Part shown: positions 8,283-64,000 of the stretch, in pieces
How the letters are laid out: each line of letters begins with the position of its first letter
Position numbering within the stretch: the stretch's first letter is position 1
DNA from: Pseudorhodoplanes sp.
Lineage (GTDB): Bacteria > Pseudomonadota > Alphaproteobacteria > Rhizobiales > Xanthobacteraceae
NCBI GenBank assembly: GCA_032027085.1
Contig: JAVSMS010000001.1
Location: forward strand, 2,000,332-2,064,331
Direction: 5' to 3'
DNA: 64,000 bases
The notes under the pieces: generated by a model
The model's database searches: none
Seen by the model: the letters and a program-made list of their open reading frames with translations, nothing else
What the model was told of the DNA's origin: nothing
Made by a program: the position numbers and the translations under genes

Positions 8283-9299
<1,017 letters not shown>

Positions 9300-9352
9300 A
9301 CGAAGCGTGTGTGTGACGCGGCCGGCTACCGCCGGCCGCCGGAGGGGACGGA

Positions 9353-10522
9353 ATGAATATTCACGAGTATCAAGCCAAGACAGTCTTGCGGGATTTCGGC
9401 GTGCCGGTCCCGCGCGGAATTCCGGCCTTTTCGGTCGATGAGGCGGTGAAAGCCGCGCAGGAAATGGGCGGCCCGGTCTGGGTGGTGAAGGCCCAGATTC
9501 ACGCCGGCGGCCGCGGCAAGGCGGGCGGCGTCAAAGTGGTGAAATCCATCGATGACGTGAAGAAGGAATCCCAGCGCATCCTCGGCTCGACGCTGGTGAC
9601 GCACCAGACCGGCCCGCAGGGCAAGCAGGTCAACCGCCTCTACATCGAGGAAGGTTCGGCCATCGATAAGGAATTCTACCTGTCGATGCTGGTCGATCGT
9701 GAATCCTCGCGCGTCGCGATCGTGGTCTCCACTGAAGGCGGCATGAATATCGAAGAAGTCGCGCACGACACGCCGGAAAAGATTACGACCATCACCGTCG
9801 ATCCGGTCACCGGCATCATGCCGCACCACGTCCGTGCGGTGTCGCAGGCGCTGAAGCTCGACGCCGAGCTGCAGAAGCAGATGAGCCCGCTTCTGACCAA
9901 CCTTTGCAAGGCTTTTGTCGACACCGACATGAGCCTCCTGGAGATCAATCCGCTGGTCGTCACCAAGGACAAGAAGCTGATCTGCCTCGACGCCAAGGTT
10001 GGCTTCGACAGCAACGCGCTGTTCCGCCACCCCAAGATCGCAGAGTTGCGCGACGAGACGGAGGAAGACGAGAAGGAGATCGAGGCCTCCAAGTTCGATC
10101 TCAATTACATCGCGCTCGACGGCTCGATCGGCTGCATGGTGAACGGCGCCGGCCTCGCCATGGCGACCATGGACATCATCAAGCTCTATGGCGCCTCGCC
10201 CGCCAACTTTCTCGACGTCGGCGGCGGCGCCTCCAAGGAGAAGGTGGCAGCCGCGTTCAAGATCATCACCTCCGATCCCAAGGTAAAAGGCATCCTGGTC
10301 AACATTTTCGGCGGCATCATGCGCTGCGACGTGATCGCGGAAGGCGTAGTAGCGGCGGTGAAGGAAGTCGGTCTGAAGGTGCCGCTGGTCGTGCGACTTG
10401 AAGGCACCAATGTCGATCTCGGCAAGAAGATCATCAGGGAATCGGGCCTGAACGTTCTCCCCGCCGATGATCTCGACGATGCCGCGCAAAAAGTGGTCAA
10501 GGCCGTGAAGGAAGCCGCGTAA
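9353..10522 (+). CDS. sucC: Succinyl-CoA synthetase beta subunit
   Basis: 389-residue ADP/GDP-forming succinate-CoA ligase beta subunit. It starts with the conserved MNIHEYQAK and carries the ATP-grasp domain (about 5-230, with [17 protein letters not shown]) and the C-terminal CoA-ligase domain containing GGGASKEKV and [10 protein letters not shown]. With SucD it makes ATP or GTP from succinyl-CoA. Its stop overlaps the sucD start by one base (TAATG), so the two subunits are translationally coupled. Confidence 0.97.
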
Positions 10523-48459: not shown

Positions 48460-48549
48460 GGAGAGGTGGCAGAGTGGTTGAATGCACCGCACTCGAAATG
48501 CGGCATACGGGCAACCGTATCGGGGGTTCGAATCCCTCCCTCTCCGCCA
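48460..48549 (+). tRNA. tRNA-Ser (anticodon CGA)
   Basis: Class II tRNA of 90 bases with encoded CCA. Acceptor GGAGAGG (48460-48466) pairs with CCTCTCC (48539-48545). The anticodon arm CCGCA-CTCGAAA-TGCGG has CGA at 48494-48496. A long variable arm (TACGGGCAACCGTA) and T-loop GGTTCGAATCC follow. It reads UCG serine codons. Confidence 0.97.
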
Positions 48550-51846: not shown

Positions 51847-52731
51847 ATGCGCTTACTGACGACTTCCGAAGCAGCTGAATATCTCCGCCTGAAGGAACGA
51901 AAGCTTTATGAGCTGATAAGCGAAGGGCAGGTTCCTTGCACGAAGGTGACGGGGAAATGGTTGTTTCCGAAGGACGAGCTGGATCTTTGGCTGGCTTCGA
52001 GCTTGATTCGGCCGGAAGGCATGCCAGCGACGGAGCCGATGCCGATCGTCGGCGGGAGCCACGATCCTTTGCTGGAATGGTCTTTGCGCGAAAGCGGTTG
52101 CGCGCTTGCGACTTTGCCCGAGGGAAGTGAGGCGGGGTTGCAGCGTTTTGCTCGCGGCGAACTGGTTGCCACAGCAATCCACTTACATGACCTGGAGAGC
52201 CAAAAGGTCGATGCCAACATTATAGCCATGCGCAGCCGCGCAAGGTTTCATGATGCCGCTCTGCTGGCATTTGCTCGTCGTGAGCAAGGCATCCTTGTCC
52301 CACTCGGAAATTCAAAGAATCTCACATGCATGCGCGATATAATACAAACGCGAGCGCGCGTCGCCCAGCGGCCGGCCGGCGCCGGCGCACAATTGCTACT
52401 GGAATCACTCCTGCATCGCGAGGATGCGGGGCTAGACCAGCTCAACATTGTCTTGCCGGCTTCGCCAACGGGATCAGACTTGGCGCAGGCGATTCGCGCC
52501 GGCCGGGCCGATTGCGGAATTGCAACACGTTCCGCCGCGACAGCCGCCGGGCTCGATTTCATTCCAATTGTTTGGGAGCATTTCGATATCGTTGTGCGGC
52601 AGCGCGATTATTTCCGGAAGCCCATACAATCGTTCCTGGCTTTCTTGCGAAGGTCCGATTTTGCACATCGAGCTGCTGAGATGGGCGGCTATGATGTCAG
52701 TGAGGCCGGCAACGTTCGTTATGCCCCTTGA
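51847..52731 (+). CDS. Helix-turn-helix regulator with periplasmic-binding-like domain (COG1910 type)
   Basis: 294 residues. An excisionase/MerR-like helix-turn-helix of about 50 residues (LLTTSEAAEYLRLKERKLYELISEGQVPCTKVTGKWLFPKDELDLWL) is fused to a molybdate/anion-binding-like domain (about 70-285, with LPASPTGSDLAQAIRAGRADCGIATRSAA and GLDFIPIVWEHFDIVVRQRDYF). Such proteins often sit beside molybdoenzyme genes. The start at 51847 is preferred because the helix-turn-helix begins two residues later. Its stop is four bases from that of the convergent desulfurase. Likely regulator of the selenium/formate module (inference from position). Confidence 0.85.
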   Translation: MRLLTTSEAAEYLRLKERKLYELISEGQVPCTKVTGKWLFPKDELDLWLASSLIRPEGMPATEPMPIVGGSHDPLLEWSLRESGCALATLPEGSEAGLQRFARGELVATAIHLHDLESQKVDANIIAMRSRARFHDAALLAFARREQGILVPLGNSKNLTCMRDIIQTRARVAQRPAGAGAQLLLESLLHREDAGLDQLNIVLPASPTGSDLAQAIRAGRADCGIATRSAATAAGLDFIPIVWEHFDIVVRQRDYFRKPIQSFLAFLRRSDFAHRAAEMGGYDVSEAGNVRYAP

Positions 52732-52735
52732 CCGA

Positions 52736-53896
52736 TCAGGCTGCCGTGGTGGCCGGCTTCGCGCCCGTCATCAGTCGCCAGGCCGAAGCAAGTGCCGCGG
52801 CCGCATCATCGACATCCTGCTCGCTGGTGTAACGTCCGACTGACAGCCGTACGGCTCCCAAAGCTTCATCCGACGATATACCCATGGCTAGCAGGATGGT
52901 GGAGGGATCTTCTCTATCCGCATGACAGGCGGAACCAGTCGACGCAAAGACGCGTGGACAATTTTCGAGGAGCTTGCGGCCCGACACCTGGGGAAAGAGT
53001 ACGTTAAGGGTGTTAGGGAGACGTTCGACGGAATGACCGACATGTTTCAGGTTCGGAATTTCGCGAACGAGCGCATGAAGCAGGCGGTCTCGCAGCATTG
53101 TCAATCGCTCCAGGTCGCGCTGCAGCCTTTCCGCCGCAATCGCGCACGCGCGACCAAGGGCAACAATGCCGGCCACGTTCTCCGTACCCGGCCGGCGGCC
53201 CTGTTCCTGGCCAGCTCCAACCAAAACAGGATCGAACCTGACGCCACGCCGAACGTAGAGCGCCCCGACGCCTTTCGGTGCGTACAGCTTGTGGCCTGCA
53301 ATGGTGACAAAATCGACACCAATCCGTCGTACATCCAATGCGATTTTTCCGGCCGATTGCGCAGCGTCGATGTGAACGAGCACGTTCTTCCGCCGGGAAG
53401 CATGCGCGACCTCTTCGACCGGCTGCAGAACGCCGGTTTCGTTCTGAGCGTGAATCATCGTCACGAGCCCAGTTGCGTCATCAATCGCATCGATCATGGC
53501 CGCTGCCGGAACCTGTCCATTGGCGTCGGGAGCTATCCGGCGAACGTCGTGTCCGCGTCGCGCGAGCAACGCGCAGACGGATTCTGTCGCCGGGTGCTCG
53601 ATCGCAGTCGTGACCACGGCCCGCTTTTCGGGCGCGCGCCGTGAGGTGCCTGCGATTGCAATATTGCTTGATTCGGTGCCGCCACTGGTGAAGACGATTT
53701 CATCCGCGCCAGCGCCGATCAAAGACGCGACATCGGCACGTGCCGATTCCACCGCATCGCGCGCATAACGTCCCAGAGCATAGGCCGATGAAGGGTTGCC
53801 GAACTGGCCGCGCAAATAAGGCAGCATCGCTTGCAACACATCGGGATCGACGGGTGTGGTCGCGTTATGATCGAGATATATCGGAGTCATCGTCAT
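52736..53896 (-). CDS. Cysteine desulfurase (NifS/IscS-like)
   Basis: 386-residue PLP enzyme of the class V aminotransferase fold: YLDHNATTPVDP at the start, His101, PLP-Lys203 in GHKLYAPKG and catalytic Cys324 in STGSACHADRED. It releases sulfur, or selenium from selenocysteine, as a protein persulfide/perselenide. Placed 21 bases downstream of selD, it could feed selenium to SelD or sulfur to the formate dehydrogenase molybdenum site; the sequence does not decide. Last gene of the minus-strand operon. Confidence 0.9.
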   Translation of the reverse strand: MTMTPIYLDHNATTPVDPDVLQAMLPYLRGQFGNPSSAYALGRYARDAVESARADVASLIGAGADEIVFTSGGTESSNIAIAGTSRRAPEKRAVVTTAIEHPATESVCALLARRGHDVRRIAPDANGQVPAAAMIDAIDDATGLVTMIHAQNETGVLQPVEEVAHASRRKNVLVHIDAAQSAGKIALDVRRIGVDFVTIAGHKLYAPKGVGALYVRRGVRFDPVLVGAGQEQGRRPGTENVAGIVALGRACAIAAERLQRDLERLTMLRDRLLHALVREIPNLKHVGHSVERLPNTLNVLFPQVSGRKLLENCPRVFASTGSACHADREDPSTILLAMGISSDEALGAVRLSVGRYTSEQDVDDAAAALASAWRLMTGAKPATTAA

Positions 53897-53917: not shown

Positions 53918-54967
53918 TTATATCTCGACGCGGATCGATGGCGGGCCGGCTTCGATCCGGCCAACGATGCGCGCGAATGGATAGCCGTCGGCGACAATGC
54001 GCTCGACGTGTCCCGCGGCGCTGTCGGCTTTGCAGGAAATCAGAAGTCCACCCGATGTCTGAGGATCGGTCAGAAGGTGACGCTGCCAGTCCGGGCAATC
54101 GACCGGCAGTGTCACGCTTTCCCCGTAGCTCGCCCAGTTGCGATGCGAGGCGCCGGTGACGCATCCTTGTTGCGCCAGCATCGCGGCTTCGCTCAAAAAT
54201 GGAACGCTCGTCAGATCGATTACGAATGTGGCGTTCGATGCGCGCGCCATTTCCAGACCGTGGCCGAGGAGGCCGAAGCCGGTGACGTCGGTCATTGCAT
54301 GAACCGACGGCTCAGCCGCGAGCCCGGCGCCGACCCTGTTCAGCAGAGTGGTGGTGGCGACCATGTCGGCATAGCCGGCAGGCGGCAGCATTGCTTTCTT
54401 GATGGCGGCCGAATAGATACCGACGCCGAGTGGCTTGGTCAGGATGACCGCATCGCCCGGTTTGGCACCGGCGTTGCGGCGGACGTGTTCCGCCCGGCAG
54501 GTGCCGATGACGGCCAAGCCGTAGACCGGCTCCGGACAATCGATGGAGTGGCCGCCTGCGACCGGAATACCGGCCGATTTACAGACGGCAGTGCCACCTT
54601 CCAGAATCAGGCGCACCGTCTCGGCCGGAATCTTGTCCACCGGCATGCCGAGGATGGCCAGCGCCATGATGGGAGTGCCGCCCATCGCGTAGACGTCCGA
54701 AATCGCGTTCGTGGCGGCGATGCGACCGAAATCATACGGATCATCCACCATCGGCATGAAGAAATCGGTCGTCGCGATGACGCAGGTGCCGTCATCCAGC
54801 TTCCAGACCGCAGCGTCGTCGCCAGTTTCGACTCCGACCAGCAACTGCGGATAAATCGTGTTGCCAGGATGCCCGGACAGCAATTGCTGCAGAACGGAAG
54901 GTGCCAGCTTGCAGCCACATCCGCCACTGTGGGCGAGGCTGGTCAGGCGGATTTGCGGAACATTCAT
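53918..54967 (-). CDS. selD: Selenide, water dikinase (selenophosphate synthetase)
   Basis: 349 residues. With the second of two adjacent ATGs (54967) as start, the catalytic Cys17 and Lys20 fall exactly at the E. coli SelD numbering (GGCGCK at 15-20). The ATP/Mg site GDDAAVW and the blocks [32 protein letters not shown] and DPQTSGGLL are intact. It makes selenophosphate for selenocysteyl-tRNA. A cysteine and not a selenocysteine is encoded at the active site. It explains the Sec codon in the divergent fdhG. Confidence 0.95.
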
Positions 54968-55024
54968 CATCGCGTCCTTTGGAGCAATCGTACCGTGCGT
55001 TTGTTGCGGCTTCCTCGAGACAAG

Positions 55025-55252
55025 TCAGTGCCGTTTTACGAGCTTGAAGATGAACAGTTCATCGTTGCGGGCCTGCTCGGCCAGCTCATGACCGGTTTGG
55101 CGAACAAAATGCGGCACGTCTATCACGGTCAGCGGGTCGGTGCATTCCAGAACAAGAATGCCACCGACCGGCAGCGCGACGAGAGCCTTCTTCGCGCGCA
55201 AAACCGGCTGCGGACAACGCAGACCGCGCAAGTCGAGGACCGTTTCGTGCAT
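55025..55252 (-). CDS. TusA/YedF-like sulfurtransferase
   Basis: 75-residue TusA-fold protein with the key Cys13 in LDLRGLRCPQPVLRAKKAL (CPxP). Family members carry persulfide sulfur or, for the YedF branch, are linked genomically to selenium use. Start at 55252 (MHETVLDL); an in-frame extension to 55297 has no homology. 54 bases upstream of selD, so it may pass sulfur or selenium between the desulfurase and SelD or toward the molybdenum cofactor. Confidence 0.88.
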   Translation of the reverse strand: MHETVLDLRGLRCPQPVLRAKKALVALPVGGILVLECTDPLTVIDVPHFVRQTGHELAEQARNDELFIFKLVKRH

Positions 55253-55332
55253 CGTTGACCGCAAGGCCCTTAATGATAGCGAAGGCAGCATTGCCACGCC
55301 GCCTTCGCCGATTCATCATCGCTCGGGTGGCT

Positions 55333-56436
55333 TCAGGCCGACAACTCCCGTGATGTGATGGTATATCTGAAGCCGTCCGGATCCAGACAATCGAGCCGCT
55401 CCGCCACCGTTTCCGCCTGCGGATACATCAGGAATTCCAGCATTTTGCCCGATGCGCCCGGCAAATTGATGTCATGCGCAAAATTATAGGCGAGCCAGTT
55501 GCCTTCCCACGAACCGAAAAGAGCGGCGCGCGCGGCAACCACTTTCGGATCGTTCAGGGCGAGATTGGCCGGCGGCTCCTCAAGCACGACTTTGCGGACA
55601 TCGGCCGGATCGACAGCGATCCAGCCATGACCGGCGAGATAAACTTCGGCGCGGCAATGTTGCGCCTTGGTGACATTGTTCGAGCCGGCCCCCAAACTTT
55701 TGTAACCGAACTTGGACGGCGCGACGCGAAGGCCATAGACATCGCGCGCGGGCAGGCCGGCCGCGCGCGCGAGGCCAACATAGAGCGCGTTCAGGTCGGC
55801 ACATTTCCCGGTCAGATCGCCGGATTTCAGCATCGCTGCGACGTCGCCGATGCCGCAGCCTCGGGTCTTTGGATTGCGTGAGCTGTTTTCGACCACCCAG
55901 TCATAGATCTTCCGCGCCTTTTCCAGGTCGGTCGTAGCGCCGACGGTGATCTTGTCGGCAAACTGCCTAACGATTCCATCAGTGGGAATCAGCGCTGTCG
56001 ACTCTGTGTAAAGCTTGCGCTCGGCCTGCGAGAGCGGAGCTGCCTTGCCCGGCTTTGACAGATCGACGGCGCGATCTTGCGCTGAGAAGCGGCTGGTCAC
56101 TTCCAGCACAGGCGCCTTCTCGCTTGCGTCCCATTCGGCATGCACGAACGCGGCCTGGTATTTGGGATCCTTCTTCAGCGAAACGGCTTTCGCGTTTGTC
56201 GTCCACTTGCTCTCGCCCGATTTGAACCAGTCGCCTTGATTCACTGAAGGCACCGGCACCCATACCTGCACTTTGCCCTGCGGTTTTGCGATTTCGACCT
56301 TGGTGAGAATTTCAAAATTGCGCCAGCCGGACGGCTTCGGCGCGAATGCCGCTTGCGCCTGCCCCATCCGGGGCAGCGCGGCGACGGCGGAAATGGCTAT
56401 GCCGGCCTTCAGCAAATCACGTCTGTCGATTCTCAT
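55333..56436 (-). CDS. Tat-exported transglutaminase-like domain protein
   Basis: 367 residues. A twin-arginine signal (RIDRRDLLKAGIAISAVAAL, 2-21) is followed by an N-terminal beta domain and a transglutaminase core (about 170-285). The triad candidates are Cys212 (GKCADLNALYVGLARAAGLPAR), His260 (QHCRAEVYLAGHGWIAV) and Asp276. Probably a periplasmic cysteine protease or amidase-like enzyme. Located between tusA-like and tlpA-like genes of the selenium operon, an association I do not know from the literature. Confidence 0.85.
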   Translation of the reverse strand: MRIDRRDLLKAGIAISAVAALPRMGQAQAAFAPKPSGWRNFEILTKVEIAKPQGKVQVWVPVPSVNQGDWFKSGESKWTTNAKAVSLKKDPKYQAAFVHAEWDASEKAPVLEVTSRFSAQDRAVDLSKPGKAAPLSQAERKLYTESTALIPTDGIVRQFADKITVGATTDLEKARKIYDWVVENSSRNPKTRGCGIGDVAAMLKSGDLTGKCADLNALYVGLARAAGLPARDVYGLRVAPSKFGYKSLGAGSNNVTKAQHCRAEVYLAGHGWIAVDPADVRKVVLEEPPANLALNDPKVVAARAALFGSWEGNWLAYNFAHDINLPGASGKMLEFLMYPQAETVAERLDCLDPDGFRYTITSRELSA

Positions 56437-56470: not shown

Positions 56471-57046
56471 TTAGGGCCGGGCTGTTTTTCTCCGCACGGC
56501 TACCGGCAGCGCCTTCAGAATGTCGGTGATATCGAGACGATCCCATTCGATCTCGCGTTCCGCATAGACCCGGGCAACGAGATCGGAATCAAGCAGGAAG
56601 CTCGTCGGAAGAACATTTACGTCCCACGCCTTGGCGATTTGCCGGTCTTCATCAAGCACGACCGGAAAGCTCACGGGGGTCTTCTCGAAAAAGCGCCTGA
56701 CACGTGAGCTAGGCTCGTTGACGGAAACCGAGATAATTCGCAGCGATCCCGCTTTCGGATTCTGGGCCAGACGTTCGAGTGCCTGCATTTCCGGCCGGCA
56801 TGGTTCGCACCAGGTGGCAAAGAAGTGCACAAGCACGGGCTGGCCCGAATAATCGGATAATCTCCAAACCTTGCCTCCGATATCTCTCAGGGCGAATATC
56901 GGTTGAATTGATCCCGACCAGGGCTGAAGCCTTGACTGACTCCCTTGTTTATCGGCCGCAGGAGCATCGCCTGCGGTGATCCAAGAGAGGACAACGGCGA
57001 ATGCCAGCATGGGCAAGCGGCGACGGAGATTCGTACCGCAGGACAT
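56471..57046 (-). CDS. TlpA-like periplasmic thioredoxin
   Basis: 191 residues: signal peptide (about 9-31), then a TlpA/ResA thioredoxin fold with the redox motif WCEPC at 79-83 and the cis-Pro loop NVLPTSFLLD near 150. Start at 57046 chosen for the signal peptide. First gene of the minus-strand operon and divergent from fdhG. It may keep cysteines (or the selenocysteine) of exported proteins reduced; this is inference. Confidence 0.87.
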   Translation of the reverse strand: MSCGTNLRRRLPMLAFAVVLSWITAGDAPAADKQGSQSRLQPWSGSIQPIFALRDIGGKVWRLSDYSGQPVLVHFFATWCEPCRPEMQALERLAQNPKAGSLRIISVSVNEPSSRVRRFFEKTPVSFPVVLDEDRQIAKAWDVNVLPTSFLLDSDLVARVYAEREIEWDRLDITDILKALPVAVRRKTARP

Positions 57047-57241
57047 GTCGCCAGAAAGAAAGCCCCGATCCTCGGGAGCGGTCCCGGTCACCACGTTGCA
57101 AGCATGGCTAACACGCTGACGTCTGGTCAACTCCTATTTTTGGTCTCGTAGCAGGAACATATTAAAACATATTCTTACAGAGTGAGTCCGAATTATAGCC
57201 AGCGCCTATCCGAATTTTTGAGGGGTGACTTCGAAAATCGT

Positions 57242-57383: not shown

Positions 57384-60300
57384 ATGAATATGGAGCTCTC
57401 GCGGCGCTCATTTATGAAGGGCGCGAGTGCGGGATTGGCAGGCACAACAATCGGCGCGCTTGGATTTGGTGAAATCGAAGCTGCGCATGCCGCAATGATC
57501 CGGCCATTCAAGCTCGCGCAAACCAAGGAAGCCCGCAGCTCTTGCCCTTACTGTGCAGTCTGCTGCGGCATGATGATCTTCTCGGCCGAGAGCAAGACCG
57601 AGAAAGGCAAGATGGAAGTTACCCATATCGAGGGTGACGTCGACCACCCGGTGAACCGCGGCACCCTGTGCCCGAAGGGCGCGGGCGCCCTCGACTACAT
57701 CAGGGCGAAGACCCGGGTTAAACACCCGATGTATCGCAAGCCCGGCAGCAACAAGTTCGAGCGCGTCTCCTGGGACTTCGCGATGGATCGCATCGCGAAG
57801 CTGATGAAGGAAGATCGCGACGCTAACTTCGTCGAAAAGAACAGGGACGGCGTGACAGTCAATCGCTGGCCCACCATGGCATTTCTGTCGGGCAGCTCCT
57901 GCACCAACGAAACCGGCTGGCTCACATACAAGGTCGCTCGCGGCCTTGGGATGTTACAGATCGAAAACCAAGCAAGGATATGACACGGACCGACGGTGTC
58001 CAGTTTGGGCCCAACATTCGGTCGCGGTGCAATGACGAACAGCTGGACGGACATCGGTAACGCCGATCTCGTCTGGATCATGGGTGGAAACGCCGCAGAG
58101 GCTCATCCCTGCGGATTCAAATGGGTCACGGAAGCCAAGCACAATCGTGGCGCCAAACTTATGGTTGTCGATCCGCGCTTCAATCGATCGGCGGCCATGG
58201 CGGATCATTACGCGCCGATTCGTCCGGGGTCGGACATCGCGTTCCTGTCGGGCGTGGTGAATTACCTGCTGACGAACGACAAGATCCACAAGGAGTACGT
58301 GCGCCACTACACCAACGCGGCCTATGTCGTGAAGGAGGGCTATGCCTTCAACGAAGGCTTATTCTCCGGATATGACGAGGAGAAGCGCACCTACAACCGC
58401 AGCTCCTGGGAATACGAGATTGGCCCGGACGGGTTTGCCGTGCGTGACATGACTCTCGAAAACCCGCGCTGCGTATTCCAGCTGATGAAGAAGCATTTCG
58501 AGCGGTACACGCCCGAACTGGTCGAGCGCGTCAGCGGCACACCCAAGGACAAGTTCCTGAAGGTTGCCGAATGGGTCAGCTCGACTGCTAACGGCGAGCG
58601 TGCCATGACGATCATGTACGCGCTCGGCTGGACGCAGCATTCGCACGGTGCGCAAAATATCCGCACCGCCGCGATGATCCAGTTGTTGTGCGGCAATATT
58701 GGTGTTCCCGGCGGCGGCGTAAACGCATTGCGCGGTCACTCCAACGTTCAGGGCATCACCGATGTCGGCACACTGACGGCGGCAGTTCCGGGCTATCTGG
58801 CATTGCCGACCGAAAGCGAGCCGACGCTTGAATCGCATCTCGGCAAGCGGACCTTCAAGCCGCTGCAGGCCAACCAGACGAGCTATTGGCAGAACTACAG
58901 GAAGTTCTATGTCAGCTTCCTGAAGTCCTACTTTGGTGCCAAGGCGACTCCGGAAAACGAGTTCGGCTACCAATGGCTGCCGAAGCTCGACGTCGCCTAT
59001 GATGCGCTTCGCATGTTCGATGTCATGCATCAGGGCAAGACCACCGGCCTGCTTTGCCAGGGGTTCAATCCGTTGATGTCGATCGCCTATGCAAACAAGA
59101 CCAGAGCGGCTCTTTCGAAGCTGAAATTCCTGGTCAGCATGGATCCGATCGAGACGGATACGGCTCGGTTCTGGGAAAATCACGGCGAGTTCAACGATGT
59201 TGATCCCGCCAAGATCCAGACCGAAGTGTTCATGCTCCCGGTGACATCGTTTGTCGAGGAAGAGGGTAGCTTCACCAACTCCAGCCGGCTCATCCAGTGG
59301 AAGTGGCGGGCCGCGGATCCGTATTTCGAGTCCAGAAAGGACGTTGAAATCCTCTCGGATCTGTTCTCCCGCATCCGCAAGATGTACGAGAAGGACGGTG
59401 GCAAGGCGGCCGAACCTCTCCTTGCGATCAACTGGCCCTATAAAGACCCGAGTCACCCGTCTGCCGATGAGCTGCTCAAGGAGCTCAATGGCAAGGCGCT
59501 GGTGGATCTCAAGGACGCAGACGGCAAGGTCGTTCGCGCCGCCGGACAGCAGCTCGCCAGCTTCGGCGAAATGCGGGACGACGGTTCGACCGACGGCTCG
59601 ATGTGGATCTACACCGGGGTCTACGGTCCGGCGGGCAACTTCGCCCAGCGCCGCGACAACAGCGATCCGTCAGGTCTCGGAGTCTACGGAAACTGGGGCT
59701 TCTCCTGGCCGGCCAATCGCCGCATCCAGTACAATCGCGCATCTGCGGATCCGCAAGGCAACCCATGGAGCGATAAGAAGAAGTACATGTTCTGGAACGG
59801 TTCACGCTGGACCGGACCGGACGTGCCGGATTACGTGCCGACCATTCCGCCGGAACGGGCCACCGGTCCGTTCATCATGAACCCGGAAGGTGTGTCGCGC
59901 CTGTGGGTTCGCGGCTTGATGGCCGACGGACCATTTCCGGTCCACATGGAGCCGTTCGAGTCGCCGCTGCCAAACAACCCAGTATTCCCGAAAATACGCG
60001 GCAATCCGGCGGCCCGGGTGTTCAAGGGCGATATGGAAGTCTTTGGCAATGCCAAGGAATTTCCGATCGTCGCGACCACCTATCGTTTGGTGGAGCACTT
60101 CCACTTCTGGACCAAGGGCGTCCACGCGAACGCGGTCATGCAGCCGGAGTTCTTCGTGGAGATGTCGGAGCAACTCGCCAAGGAGAAAGGAATCAAGCTC
60201 GGCCAGATGGTCCGCGTCTGGTCCAACCGCGGCGAGGTCAAGGGCAAGGCCGTTGTTACCAAGCGGCTCAAGCCGCTGCAGATTGACGGCCGGACGGTTC

Positions 60301-60461
60301 ATACCGTGGGCTTGCCGCTCAACTTCGGCTTTATCGGCGAAACGAAGAAAGCATCGCCGATCAACTCGCTGACGCCGGCGGTGGGCGATGCAAACGCTCA
60401 GACACCGGAGTTCAAGGCGTTCCTGGTCAATATCGAGCCCATTGCCGGGCCGGTGGCATAG
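57384..60461 (+). CDS. fdoG: Formate dehydrogenase alpha subunit, selenocysteine-containing
   Basis: Molybdopterin enzyme of 1025 residues when the TGA at 57981-57983 is read as selenocysteine (residue 200). The context NQARI[24 protein letters not shown] matches E. coli FdnG/FdoG around their Sec196. N-terminal Tat signal RRSFMKG (6-12), an iron-sulfur site CPYCAVCC ... LCPKG, and the downstream blocks [42 protein letters not shown] are intact. Exported, it oxidises formate and passes electrons to the beta and gamma subunits. Start at 57384 after GAGGAAACG. Not a pseudogene: both halves are in one frame and a SECIS hairpin follows the TGA. Confidence 0.96.
57981..58012 (+). promoter_or_regulatory. 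UGA(Sec) codon and bacterial SECIS element
   Basis: Counting the U of UGA as 1, the hairpin GG-U-GUCC-AGUUU-GGGC-CC has its bulged U at position 17 (57997) and loop G23/U24 at 58003-58004. These are exactly the SelB-contacting positions of the E. coli fdhF element. Stem pairs: 57995-57996 with 58011-58012, and 57998-58001 with 58007-58010. Confidence 0.93.
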
Positions 60462-60477: not shown

Positions 60478-61419
60478 ATGTTTCCACCTATTGCAAACCC
60501 CACGACGCAACCGACGGCTCCGAAGTTCGGTGAGCAGGATCTGATCCGCCGCTCGGCCTCCAACATCACGCCTGCCGCGAAGCGGCAGACCGAGGTGGCG
60601 AAGCTGATTGACGTGTCCAAGTGCATCGGTTGCAAGGCATGCCAGGTGGCATGTCTTGAATGGAACGATCTCGTAGAGGAGGTCGGTGTCAATGTGGGCG
60701 TCTATGACAACCCGCACGATTTGACACCGAACACCTGGACGCTGATGCGTTACACCGAGTACGAGAATCCGGAATCCGGCAATCTTGAGTGGCTGATCCG
60801 AAAGGACGGCTGCATGCATTGCGAGGACCCGGGTTGCCTCAAGGCGTGCCCGGCACCAGGCGCGATCGTGCAGTACTCCAACGGAATCGTCGATTTCGTG
60901 AAGGAGAATTGCATCGGTTGCGGTTATTGTGTGAAGGGCTGCCCGTTCAACATCCCGCGTATCTCCAAGGTCGATCACAAGGCTTACAAGTGCACGCTCT
61001 GCTCCGATCGGGTTGCGGTCGGCCAGGGGCCGGCATGCCAGAAGGCATGTCCGACACAGGCCATTGTGTTTGGCACCAAGGACGAGATGAAGAAGTGGGC
61101 CGACGATCGCATCAAGGATCTGAAGTCGCGCGGGTTCAAGAATGCCGGCCTCTATGATCCGCCGGGTGTGAGCGGAACGCACGTCATGTACGTGTTGCAG
61201 CACGCGGACAAGCCGCAGATTTATGCCAACCTTCCCAACAATCCGTCGATCAGCCCGATCGTCGAAGCGTGGAAAGGCATGACGAAGTACGCAGGCTTGG
61301 CGGCAATCGGCGCGTTTGCCGCGTTCGGATTCCTCCATCACGTCGTATCGGGTCCCAACAGGGTATCCGAGGAGGATGAGAAGAACGCCAAACGTCTGAC
61401 GGAGGAACAATCGCGATGA
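60478..61419 (+). CDS. fdoH: Formate dehydrogenase iron-sulfur (beta) subunit
   Basis: 313 residues with four ferredoxin-type cysteine clusters: [35 protein letters not shown] and CTLCSDR...[10 protein letters not shown]-terminal membrane anchor helix (about 265-290, [18 protein letters not shown]) follows. It conducts electrons from FdhG to the cytochrome subunit. It begins 16 bases after fdhG behind GAGGGGAGGG and overlaps the gamma gene by four bases (ATGA). Confidence 0.95.
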
Positions 61420-62084
61420 GCAGTTACGAAGTTGCTCCCGGCGACAGCGTTCACGCCGGCAATCCTGTCAGGGTGGATCGCTACACGACCGGCGCACGGA
61501 TCAACCACTGGATCACGGCCGCAAGCCTTGTTCTGCTGGCGCTTTCCGGCTTGGCGTTGTTTCATCCCAGCCTTTACTTCCTCACCGGCCTGTTCGGTGG
61601 CGGAGGCCTGACTCGCGTGATCCATCCGTGGATCGGGGTCGTGTTGTTCTTCAGCTTCCTGGGTCTGTTCTTCCGCTTCTGGAAACTCAATCTCTGGGAG
61701 CGGACAGACAGTGTGTGGATGTCGAAATTGCGCGATGTACTCGCCGCTCACGACGAGAATCTGCCTGAAGTCGGAAAATACAACGCCGGCCAGAAGATGG
61801 TGTTCTGGTCAATGTCGCTTCTGATCATCGTGTTGATCACCAGCGGCGTGGTCATCTGGGACCAGTATTTCGGCGAGTATTTCACAATCACGCAGAAGCG
61901 TATCGCGGTTCTGATTCATGCTATTGCCGCGGTTACCGCGATCTGCGTCTGGATCGTTCACGTTTATGCAGCGATCTGGGTGCGGGGCACGATCAGCGCC
62001 ATGACCCGCGGGCAGGTGACCGGCGGGTGGGCTTGGCGTCACCATCGCAAATGGCTGAAGGAACTGGTTACGGGTAAATCCTGA
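61416..62084 (+). CDS. fdoI: Formate dehydrogenase cytochrome b556 (gamma) subunit
   Basis: 222-residue diheme cytochrome b with four membrane helices. Candidate heme ligands are the histidines in RINHWITA (helix 1), LIHAIAAV and IVHVYAAIW (C-terminal helices). It takes electrons from the beta subunit to quinone. Start overlaps the fdoH stop by four bases, indicating translational coupling. Confidence 0.94.
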
Positions 62085-62168
62085 ACCGCAGCATATATGG
62101 CGCCGGCATATAATTGCCGGCGCCGGCAAGGAAGACCGCGTGACCCGTGAGGTTCGTGAGGAAGAGTG

Positions 62169-63086
62169 ATGTCGCGAGTCGAAACGCCAGAAGCTGATCC
62201 ATCCGCTGTCGGTACGATCCCAAAGCCTCCTTTTGTACGGCTTTCCGACCCTGTCGAGCTCTTTGCTGCCCGCGCTGGGCGCTTCCGCGCGCTCGCGGAA
62301 GGCCATGATCTTGCACCCTATCTGCACTTTCTTGCAGAACTGTGCGAGGCGCAAGCGACGATGCAGGATGGGCTGGCCGAACCAGAAGCGATCGACGCCG
62401 AAGTTCTTGCGCGCGCGCATGAGCATGCCATGCCGCCGCTTGATCGCGGCAGGTTTGCGGTGGACACGGTCTTTGCGGCCACCTTCGACCGTCTGTTAGC
62501 GGCCGCGGAGCAAATGAACATGCCGCCGCAGGCCGCGGCGGCACGCGATCGCGTGAAGTTGATGGACGCGGCGCTGCGCGAGGAAATGGTGCACAACGTC
62601 CTTGCCGAATCCATTCCGGTCGAGACGCTGGCCGAGCATATCTTTGTCGCCGCCGCCCTGCAGGTGCATTTTGCCCGTCTGGCCGCGCGCCTCGATCCCA
62701 AAACTCTTGTATCTGTTGGCGATAGCCTTTGCCCGTCCTGCGGCGGTGCGCCGTCATCAACCGTGATCGTCCGATGGTCGGTCCCGGAGGGCGCGCGTTA
62801 TTGCTCATGCTCTCTGTGCGGAACACTCTGGAATCACTTGCGGTCGAAATGCACGTTGTGCGGGGCCACCAAGCAAATCCTTTTCCAGGAAATCGAGGGA
62901 AGCGGCGGCACCGTCAAAGCCGAGACCTGCGACGATTGCCGCGGTTACATGAAGGTCCTGTATCAGACCAAAAACGATGCGCTCGATCCGGTCGCCGACG
63001 ACGTAGCGACGCTTGGCCTCGATCTGCTTGTGCGTGAGCTTGGTTTCCGCCGCGGAGGCGTCAATCCGTTTCTGATCGGTTATTGA
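62169..63086 (+). CDS. fdhE: Formate dehydrogenase accessory protein FdhE
   Basis: 305 residues. The C-terminal half holds four CxxC pairs (CPSCGG, CSLCGT, CTLCGA, CDDCRG) that form the rubredoxin-like zinc/iron sites of FdhE. The C-terminus SNPF-type motif appears as GGVNPFLIGY. It assists activation of the exported formate dehydrogenase. Start at the ATG at 62169 after GTGAGGAAGAG, not the GTG just before. The gap to the next gene is 12 bases. Confidence 0.93.
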   Translation: MSRVETPEADPSAVGTIPKPPFVRLSDPVELFAARAGRFRALAEGHDLAPYLHFLAELCEAQATMQDGLAEPEAIDAEVLARAHEHAMPPLDRGRFAVDTVFAATFDRLLAAAEQMNMPPQAAAARDRVKLMDAALREEMVHNVLAESIPVETLAEHIFVAAALQVHFARLAARLDPKTLVSVGDSLCPSCGGAPSSTVIVRWSVPEGARYCSCSLCGTLWNHLRSKCTLCGATKQILFQEIEGSGGTVKAETCDDCRGYMKVLYQTKNDALDPVADDVATLGLDLLVRELGFRRGGVNPFLIGY

Positions 63087-63098
63087 CGGAGGCCAGAT

Positions 63099-64000
63099 GT
63101 GCACAAGGACGCCACTCGCCTCAGACGCATTCCGTCGGTTGACGAAATACTGAAAACCGCAGTGGCGGTGGAAGCCATTGACCGCTTTGGCCGTCCACTG
63201 GTTGTGGCTGCCATTCGCGGCGAAATCGACGAGGCGCGCAAGGCACTTGGCGCCGGCCAGAATGCTCCAATCGGCGCTCATGACATCGCTACATCCGCGC
63301 TAACGGAACTTGAAGTCGAATCCCGCCCGAATGTTCGTCCGGTGTTCAATCTCACGGGCACGGTGCTTCATACCAATCTCGGCCGTGCGATCTTGGCGGA
63401 AGCCGCAATCGAAGCCGCCACTGTCGCCATGCGTGAGGCGCTTGCACTTGAATTCGACCTCAAGGAAGGAAAGCGCGGTGAGCGTGACTCTCTGATTCGC
63501 GAGCTTTTGTGTGAATTGACCGGCGCCGAAGACGCGACGGTTGTCAACAACAATGCCGCCGCCGTCCTTTTGGCGCTCAACACGCTTGCAAAGGGCAAGG
63601 AGGCCATCGTATCGCGCGGTGAACTGATCGAAATCGGCGGCGCCTTCCGTATGCCGGAAATCATGTCGCGCGCTGGAGCAAGATTGGTCGAGGTCGGCAC
63701 CACCAACCGCACACATGAAAAGGACTATGTCGGCGCGATCGGACCGAAAACCGGGCTTATCCTGAAGGTGCATACCTCGAATTACCGGATTTCCGGCTTC
63801 ACAAAGGAAGTGCCGGCAAAAAAACTGTCCGAGATTGCCCGCAAAGGCAACGTGCCGCTGGTGAACGATCTTGGCTCCGGTACGCTGATTGATCTCGCGC
63901 GTTATGGTCTTGCACATGAGCCGACGGTCGCTGAGGCGGTCAGCGAGGGCGCCGATCTGGTGACGTTTTCCGGCGACAAGCTGCTGGGCGGGCCGCAGGC
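63099..64000 (+). CDS. selA: L-seryl-tRNA(Sec) selenium transferase (3' end outside window)
   Basis: PLP enzyme that converts seryl-tRNA(Sec) to selenocysteyl-tRNA(Sec). GTG start at 63099 with GGAGG six bases upstream. N-terminal [27 protein letters not shown], then [63 protein letters not shown], and PLP-Lys294 in [10 protein letters not shown] at the window end. About 300 of an expected 470 residues are visible. selB and the tRNA-Sec gene are expected to follow. Confidence 0.96.

Follow-up and report, generated by a model that had tools for sequence, protein, structure and literature searches.

The window, meaning the whole stretch of 64,000 nucleotides analysed here, contains a gene for the catalytic subunit of a formate dehydrogenase with a single in-frame TGA. 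Genes for the other subunits and for the use of selenium adjoin it on both sides. The features are as follows, with profile scores in brackets.

52736..53896, minus strand: NifS/IscS-like cysteine desulfurase (TIGR03402, 431.4 bits, below the cut-off of 530.75; Aminotran_5, 251.1 bits)
53918..54970, minus strand: selD, selenide water dikinase (TIGR00476, 430.3 bits, cut-off 125)
55025..55297, minus strand: TusA-like small protein (PF01206, 68.5 bits, cut-off 28.6)
55333..56436, minus strand: candidate accessory protein of the transglutaminase-like type, possibly with a Tat signal (PF01841, 87.1 bits; PF10518, 20.3 bits, under the cut-off of 22.7)
56471..57130, minus strand: TlpA/ResA-like thiol-disulfide protein (PF00578, 80.7 bits)
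57384..60461, plus strand: fdnG, formate dehydrogenase-N alpha subunit with putative Sec200 (TIGR01553, 1397.6 bits, cut-off 814.2)
57384..60461, plus strand: fdnG domains Molybdop_Fe4S4, Molybdopterin and Molydop_binding (profile matches)
57396..57458, plus strand: Tat signal region (RRSFMK), residues 5-25 of FdnG (TIGR01409, 19.8 bits, cut-off 16.7)
57978..58036, plus strand: SECIS element, Rfam SECIS_3 (RF01989; 76.1 bits, gathering score 63, E 2.6e-17)
57981..57983, plus strand: in-frame TGA, putatively read as selenocysteine (TGA at the aligned codon in the best 80 of 587 relatives)
60478..61419, plus strand: fdnH/fdxH, beta subunit (TIGR01582, 467.4 bits, cut-off 334.7)
61416..62084, plus strand: fdnI, gamma subunit, cytochrome b (TIGR01583, 182.7 bits, cut-off 115.85)
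62166..63086, plus strand: fdhE, formate dehydrogenase accessory protein (TIGR01562, 278.5 bits, cut-off 187.65)
63099..64000, plus strand: selA, 5' part (TIGR00474, 433 bits, cut-off 267.9)

The fdnG frame extends from the ATG at 57384 to the TAG at 60459-60461 and specifies a product of 1025 residues. Its lone in-frame stop is the TGA at 57981-57983, which is codon 200, and both halves are otherwise open. A preliminary description of this DNA had recognized an FdnG/FdoG-type gene split by an in-frame TGA, and the family model TIGR01553 indeed matches on both sides of the codon: model positions 2-194 are matched upstream of the TGA, and positions 201-1008 by the ORF at 57996-60461 downstream of it. 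The product exceeds the curated cut-off of this family and the genes of the beta and gamma subunits adjoin. A mass of 114.2 kDa was computed for the full product and of about 110-111 kDa once 30-37 signal residues are removed, while a product truncated at the TGA would have the 199 residues that had been named before. A mechanical ORF listing splits the gene and gives an 821-aa ORF at 57996-60461.

The proximity of selD and selA, previously described as lying within 10 kb, is even closer than that: selD is found 2.4 kb upstream of fdnG on the opposite strand, and selA begins 2.6 kb downstream, where the window end truncates it; in window numbering its ORF would reach 64514. Past the window end the order is selA, a Sel1-repeat-like ORF (a label that comes from reading the ORF's own sequence), selB and selC. 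The match to selB lies 1.3 kb past the window end and, with 433.2 bits against a cut-off of 242.25, is the sole one of 10 matches in the genome over the cut-off. At 3.3 kb beyond the window, selC scores 75.2 bits against a gathering threshold of 47 and is called by ARAGORN as tRNA-SeC with a TCA anticodon. The selenocysteine reading had been made dependent on the presence of selB and selC, and the genome thus holds the complete machinery of selA, selB, selC and selD. A second tRNA-Sec match, found among the 150 of 709 first-look candidates that were scored in the genome, barely exceeds the threshold (47.8 versus 47 bits) and was rejected as a second selC, being a tRNA-Ser with a TGA anticodon according to ARAGORN. 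Within the window itself ARAGORN detects a single tRNA, a tRNA-Ser with a CGA anticodon at 48460-48549 (plus strand).

Two further genes on the selD side could be related to selenium. The NifS/IscS-like cysteine desulfurase is a possible selenium donor to SelD. Beside it, at 51850-52731 on the plus strand, lies a gene for a protein with HTH_17 and PBP_like domains (PF12728, PF12727), which was seen in one of the 80 relatives' loci and may act as a regulator, either of the molybdate type or linked to selenium. For the TlpA/ResA-like protein at 56471..57130 no NCBIfam model exceeded its cut-off among the matches listed. Within the relatives' loci, some of which end early at a contig end, fdnH was found in 80 and fdnI in 78 of 80, and selA, selB, selC and selD were found above set bit scores in 53, 50, 47 and 39 of 80, respectively.

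The selB frame reads through the whole of selC. In the extended locus (L018) it covers 8343-10424 and the tRNA 10302-10400; there is no stop before selC and the frame stays open for 21 nt past the 3' end of tRNA-Sec, and its TGA stop shares bases with the start codon (ATG, 10421) of the ORF that follows. From this open frame through selC an extended SelB is predicted. Upstream of 47 of the 48 selC genes examined (our genome and 46 of 47 relatives) selB was found, and among these 47 pairs, our genome included, selB terminates beyond the start of the tRNA in 36 and beyond its end in 35. We do not put this overlap forward as a new finding since it is already in print: the nesting of selC in selB has been described for Rhizobiales in the parts of Mukai 2021 (PMC8124441) available to us, together with the hypothesis that processing of the tRNA restricts how much SelB is made. 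Compared with those parts we see no difference in our genome, which has the same layout and the same overlap of stop and ATG.

Directly 3' of the in-frame UGA a SECIS element scores over the gathering threshold. With the U of UGA numbered 1, the SECIS_3 alignment leaves U17 bulged and unpaired and forms the loop from G23, U24 and U25, in agreement with the bulge at U17 and the G23/U24 loop noted before. It is the one SECIS_3 match listed genome-wide (E up to 0.001; 150 of 2461 first-look candidates scored). A mir-1992 match at 58884-58945 was taken as a chance hit (20.6 bits, threshold 70). The folding check that had been suggested is less informative: the hairpin itself stands, but its free energy is unremarkable against shuffled sequence in the four stretches compared (z-scores +0.62, +0.55, +0.21 and -0.39), and RNAfold would therefore not have settled the question. 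What settles it are the covariance model, covariation and two frozen codons.

Covariation was analysed on 81 sequences, consisting of the window and 80 relatives' loci (best 80 of 587), with 59 distinct rows. Across this alignment 89.2% of cells in the SECIS_3 structure are paired, and the whole structure has a covariation score of 0.207 compared with a shuffled mean of 0.080; none of 500 shuffles reached 0.207 and structures slid along the alignment gave at most 0.056. Neither the four pairs with changes on both sides (shuffled mean 4.3) nor the ten further pair types (9.9 in shuffles) across the structure are in excess. Covariation supports the upper stem as the well-supported part, with 99.3% of cells paired and changes on both sides in three of seven pairs. 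Support is weaker for the lower stem, in which 81.4% of cells are paired and one of nine pairs has changed on both sides.

Selection on the SECIS is revealed more clearly by codon usage than by folding energy. We considered sites of fourfold or higher degeneracy whose amino acid shows 95% or more conservation among the 81 genes. Only two of the resulting 185 sites use a single codon, Thr204 and Ser207. Thr204 is encoded by ACG in all 79 sequences with Thr at this position (79 of 81) and supplies G15, which together with G16 forms invariant pairs below the bulged U17. Ser207 is encoded by AGT in 81 of 81 and supplies the loop residues G23 and U24; elsewhere in the same alignments AGT accounts for 127 of 4132 Ser codons (summed counts). 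Codon entropy over codons 201-215 as a whole did not drop significantly relative to other codons (the degeneracy classes gave p values of 0.18, 0.56 and 0.14), so the constraint is visible at Thr204 and Ser207 and not across the whole stretch.

The TGA is a conserved feature of this enzyme. It is present at the aligned codon in all 80 relatives examined, a sample ranked by similarity to the fdnG product and comprising the best 80 of at least 587 relatives confirmed by similarity to FdnG. A sample of the same order comprised 249 genomes, and in 18 of them FdnG exceeds the cut-off, with 20 listed matches in total: 17 with one TGA and three without a stop. For two of the latter, in G212 (locus L110) and G157, the Sec codon reads TGC; in the third (G218 C77) the TGA is present at the codon and the stop-free listing came from a match that begins downstream. 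SelB was found at E up to 1e-75 in 15 of the 18 genomes, the remaining ones being G212, G157 and G129. The TGC form of G212 (L110, 6179-9256, minus strand) retains a SECIS-like relic of 60.2 bits, below the threshold of 63; its Ser207 codon is AGC instead of AGT, so the loop U24 is lost, and no SelB match was obtained in this genome at E up to 1e-75. It looks like a fairly recent change from Sec to Cys, a type of change that Zhang et al. 2006 (PMC1794560), as far as the sections at hand go, report for the formate dehydrogenase family. The relic also illustrates that a SECIS_3 match alone is no proof of selenocysteine.

More distant forms were observed as well. G129 carries a 39% identical formate dehydrogenase alpha subunit whose Sec codon is TGA (L133, 2025-5051, minus strand); despite this TGA no SelB match was found there at E up to 1e-75, and its selB may be divergent or unassembled. 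Another distant alpha subunit (L112) is 40% identical, has TGA at the codon and reaches only 29.3 bits with SECIS_3. Two assemblies (loci L036 and L081; L037 and L077) hold two UGA-containing fdnG copies each, one about 82-83% and the other about 59% identical to our fdnG.

Given these observations, we regard it as nearly certain that the fdnG product is the catalytic subunit of a formate dehydrogenase of the FDH-N/O type, bound to the membrane and facing the periplasm, and that UGA200 is decoded as selenocysteine by way of SelD, SelA and SelB. The genes, the codon and the hairpin are present in the DNA itself; decoding and enzyme activity are predicted from what is known of these families. 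SelD would make selenophosphate, and SelA would turn Ser-tRNA(Sec) into Sec-tRNA(Sec). SelB would bind the hairpin that immediately follows the UGA and then deliver Sec-tRNA(Sec) to the ribosome. Maturation and export of the enzyme would involve FdhE and the Tat system, and FdnH and FdnI would carry electrons from formate to quinone.

The one interruption of the frame would also be expected if the TGA were a nonsense mutation and fdnG a decaying pseudogene. However, decay hardly fits a gene whose halves are both otherwise open, whose TGA is shared at this position by all 80 relatives examined (best 80 of 587) and is followed by a SECIS in a genome equipped with the Sec genes, and we give this explanation almost no credence. 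The ORF listing with its 821-aa ORF at 57996-60461 could instead be taken at face value, with two separate proteins of 199 and 821 residues, the second starting at GTG 57996. This GTG is codon 205, though, lies inside the SECIS and holds the bulged U17, and both parts match consecutive stretches of the single model TIGR01553, which makes two proteins exceedingly improbable.

A third explanation leaves fdnG as one protein and has the UGA read as an ordinary amino acid such as Cys or Trp. A natural Cys version is known from G212, with TGC at the codon. Against such a reading, our genome has a tRNA-Sec with a TCA anticodon along with SelA, SelD and SelB, and the AGT codon of Ser207 is kept in every one of the 81 UGA-bearing genes, whereas the TGC relative has AGC. 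We therefore deem insertion of an ordinary amino acid extremely unlikely and retain selenocysteine as the predicted residue at position 200.

The transglutaminase-like gene sits between selD and fdnG. Its product gave no NCBIfam match at E up to 0.01 and a single match to solved structures with an E of 0.55. In the same-order sample the gene occurs in 11 of 249 genomes (E up to 1e-30), ten of which hold SelB. With our own genome removed, SelB is found in 9 of 10 genomes with the gene versus 6 of 238 without it (Fisher 5.8e-12), a test that ignores kinship; six of the 11 gene-bearing genomes come from one genus. A sample of the class gave a similar picture: 9 of the 10 gene-bearing genomes among 289 hold SelB, and without our genome the numbers are 8 of 9 versus 32 of 279 (Fisher 5.8e-7). 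If the two alphaproteobacterial samples are pooled, 18 of 20 distinct genomes with the gene hold SelB, our genome being part of both. The two without SelB are G232, which is 82% complete, and G326, which has the weakest match. Conversely, the gene is missing from 6 of 16 SelB genomes in the order sample and from 32 of 41 in the class sample.

Proximity to fdnG is variable, and in the alphaproteobacterial samples the transglutaminase-like gene is often distant from the sel genes too. Among ten order-sample genomes with both the transglutaminase-like gene and FdnG, the two are a few kb apart in three (G000, G077, G218) and farther apart or on different contigs in seven; within the relatives' loci the gene is present in 21 of 80. 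In 300 genomes of the betaproteobacterial order of Thiobacillus thioparus, SelB occurs in 22 of 58 genomes with the gene versus 62 of 242 without it (Fisher p 0.046). Leaving out the centre genome G534, which had been chosen for having both the gene and SelB, gives 21 of 57 and p 0.064. This weak association counts against a strict link of the gene with selenocysteine. Still, by match coordinates the gene lies about 1 kb or less from selB in 6 of the 22 genomes (G534, G574, G627, G682, G702, G731). Nineteen regions around the gene contained TlpA-like matches in eight cases and fdn genes in two (L122, L130); five further ORF clusters recurred in at least 5 of the 19, and the examples for four of them overlap the transglutaminase-like gene as shadow frames. 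Neither the papers listed by literature searches on this topic nor the passages of PMC5322559, PMC3597751 and PMC13188914 that we consulted mention such a gene together with Sec or formate dehydrogenase; the one transglutaminase-like enzyme in the STRING table of PMC5322559, in the part seen, belongs to another bacterium. The link with SelB may be a new lead. The protein could be a hitherto unrecognised accessory that serves selenium use or the Sec-containing formate dehydrogenase, a tentative idea that we consider rather unlikely. The gene can be tested as a candidate for an unrecognised step in making or maintaining formate dehydrogenase.

For the enzyme that a mechanical ORF list splits, the reading given here is the correct one. 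The preliminary expectation that standard gene callers will mis-annotate such genes was nevertheless too broad. In the records of Terrarubrum flagellatum and of E. coli AR_0077, fdnG is annotated as one CDS that spans a TGA at the same codon; mis-annotation therefore does not affect every such gene. Of 15 plasmid matches listed (out of 1239 matching records), seven have fdnG annotated under the match, seven have no feature there in a gene table flagged as incomplete and one record is unannotated.

FdnG and FdoG of E. coli belong to the same protein family model, and E. coli fdnG has TGA at the aligned codon and likewise matches SECIS_3 (84.3 bits); the five E. coli fdnG matches listed show 71.0-71.2% DNA identity around the codon. 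The preliminary description had named E. coli fdhF as the model for the hairpin; the comparison made here is with fdnG. Unlike in E. coli, where we take the sel genes to be located elsewhere and not beside the fdn structural genes, fdhE, selA, selB and selC come here directly after the structural genes. The cluster around fdnG thereby keeps the Sec genes together. Compared with the alphaproteobacterial fdhA-selABC clusters in the portions of Zhang et al. 2006 (PMC1794560) that we could consult, no difference in gene set was seen; in our genome selD is also close by, beside a gene set of this type. The same portions propose horizontal transfer of the whole Sec trait for such clusters. In conclusion, fdnG very probably reads its internal stop as selenocysteine with the helper genes adjoining, an arrangement well known in this group, and the system is standard for Sec-using Alphaproteobacteria and a further member of the published arrangement.
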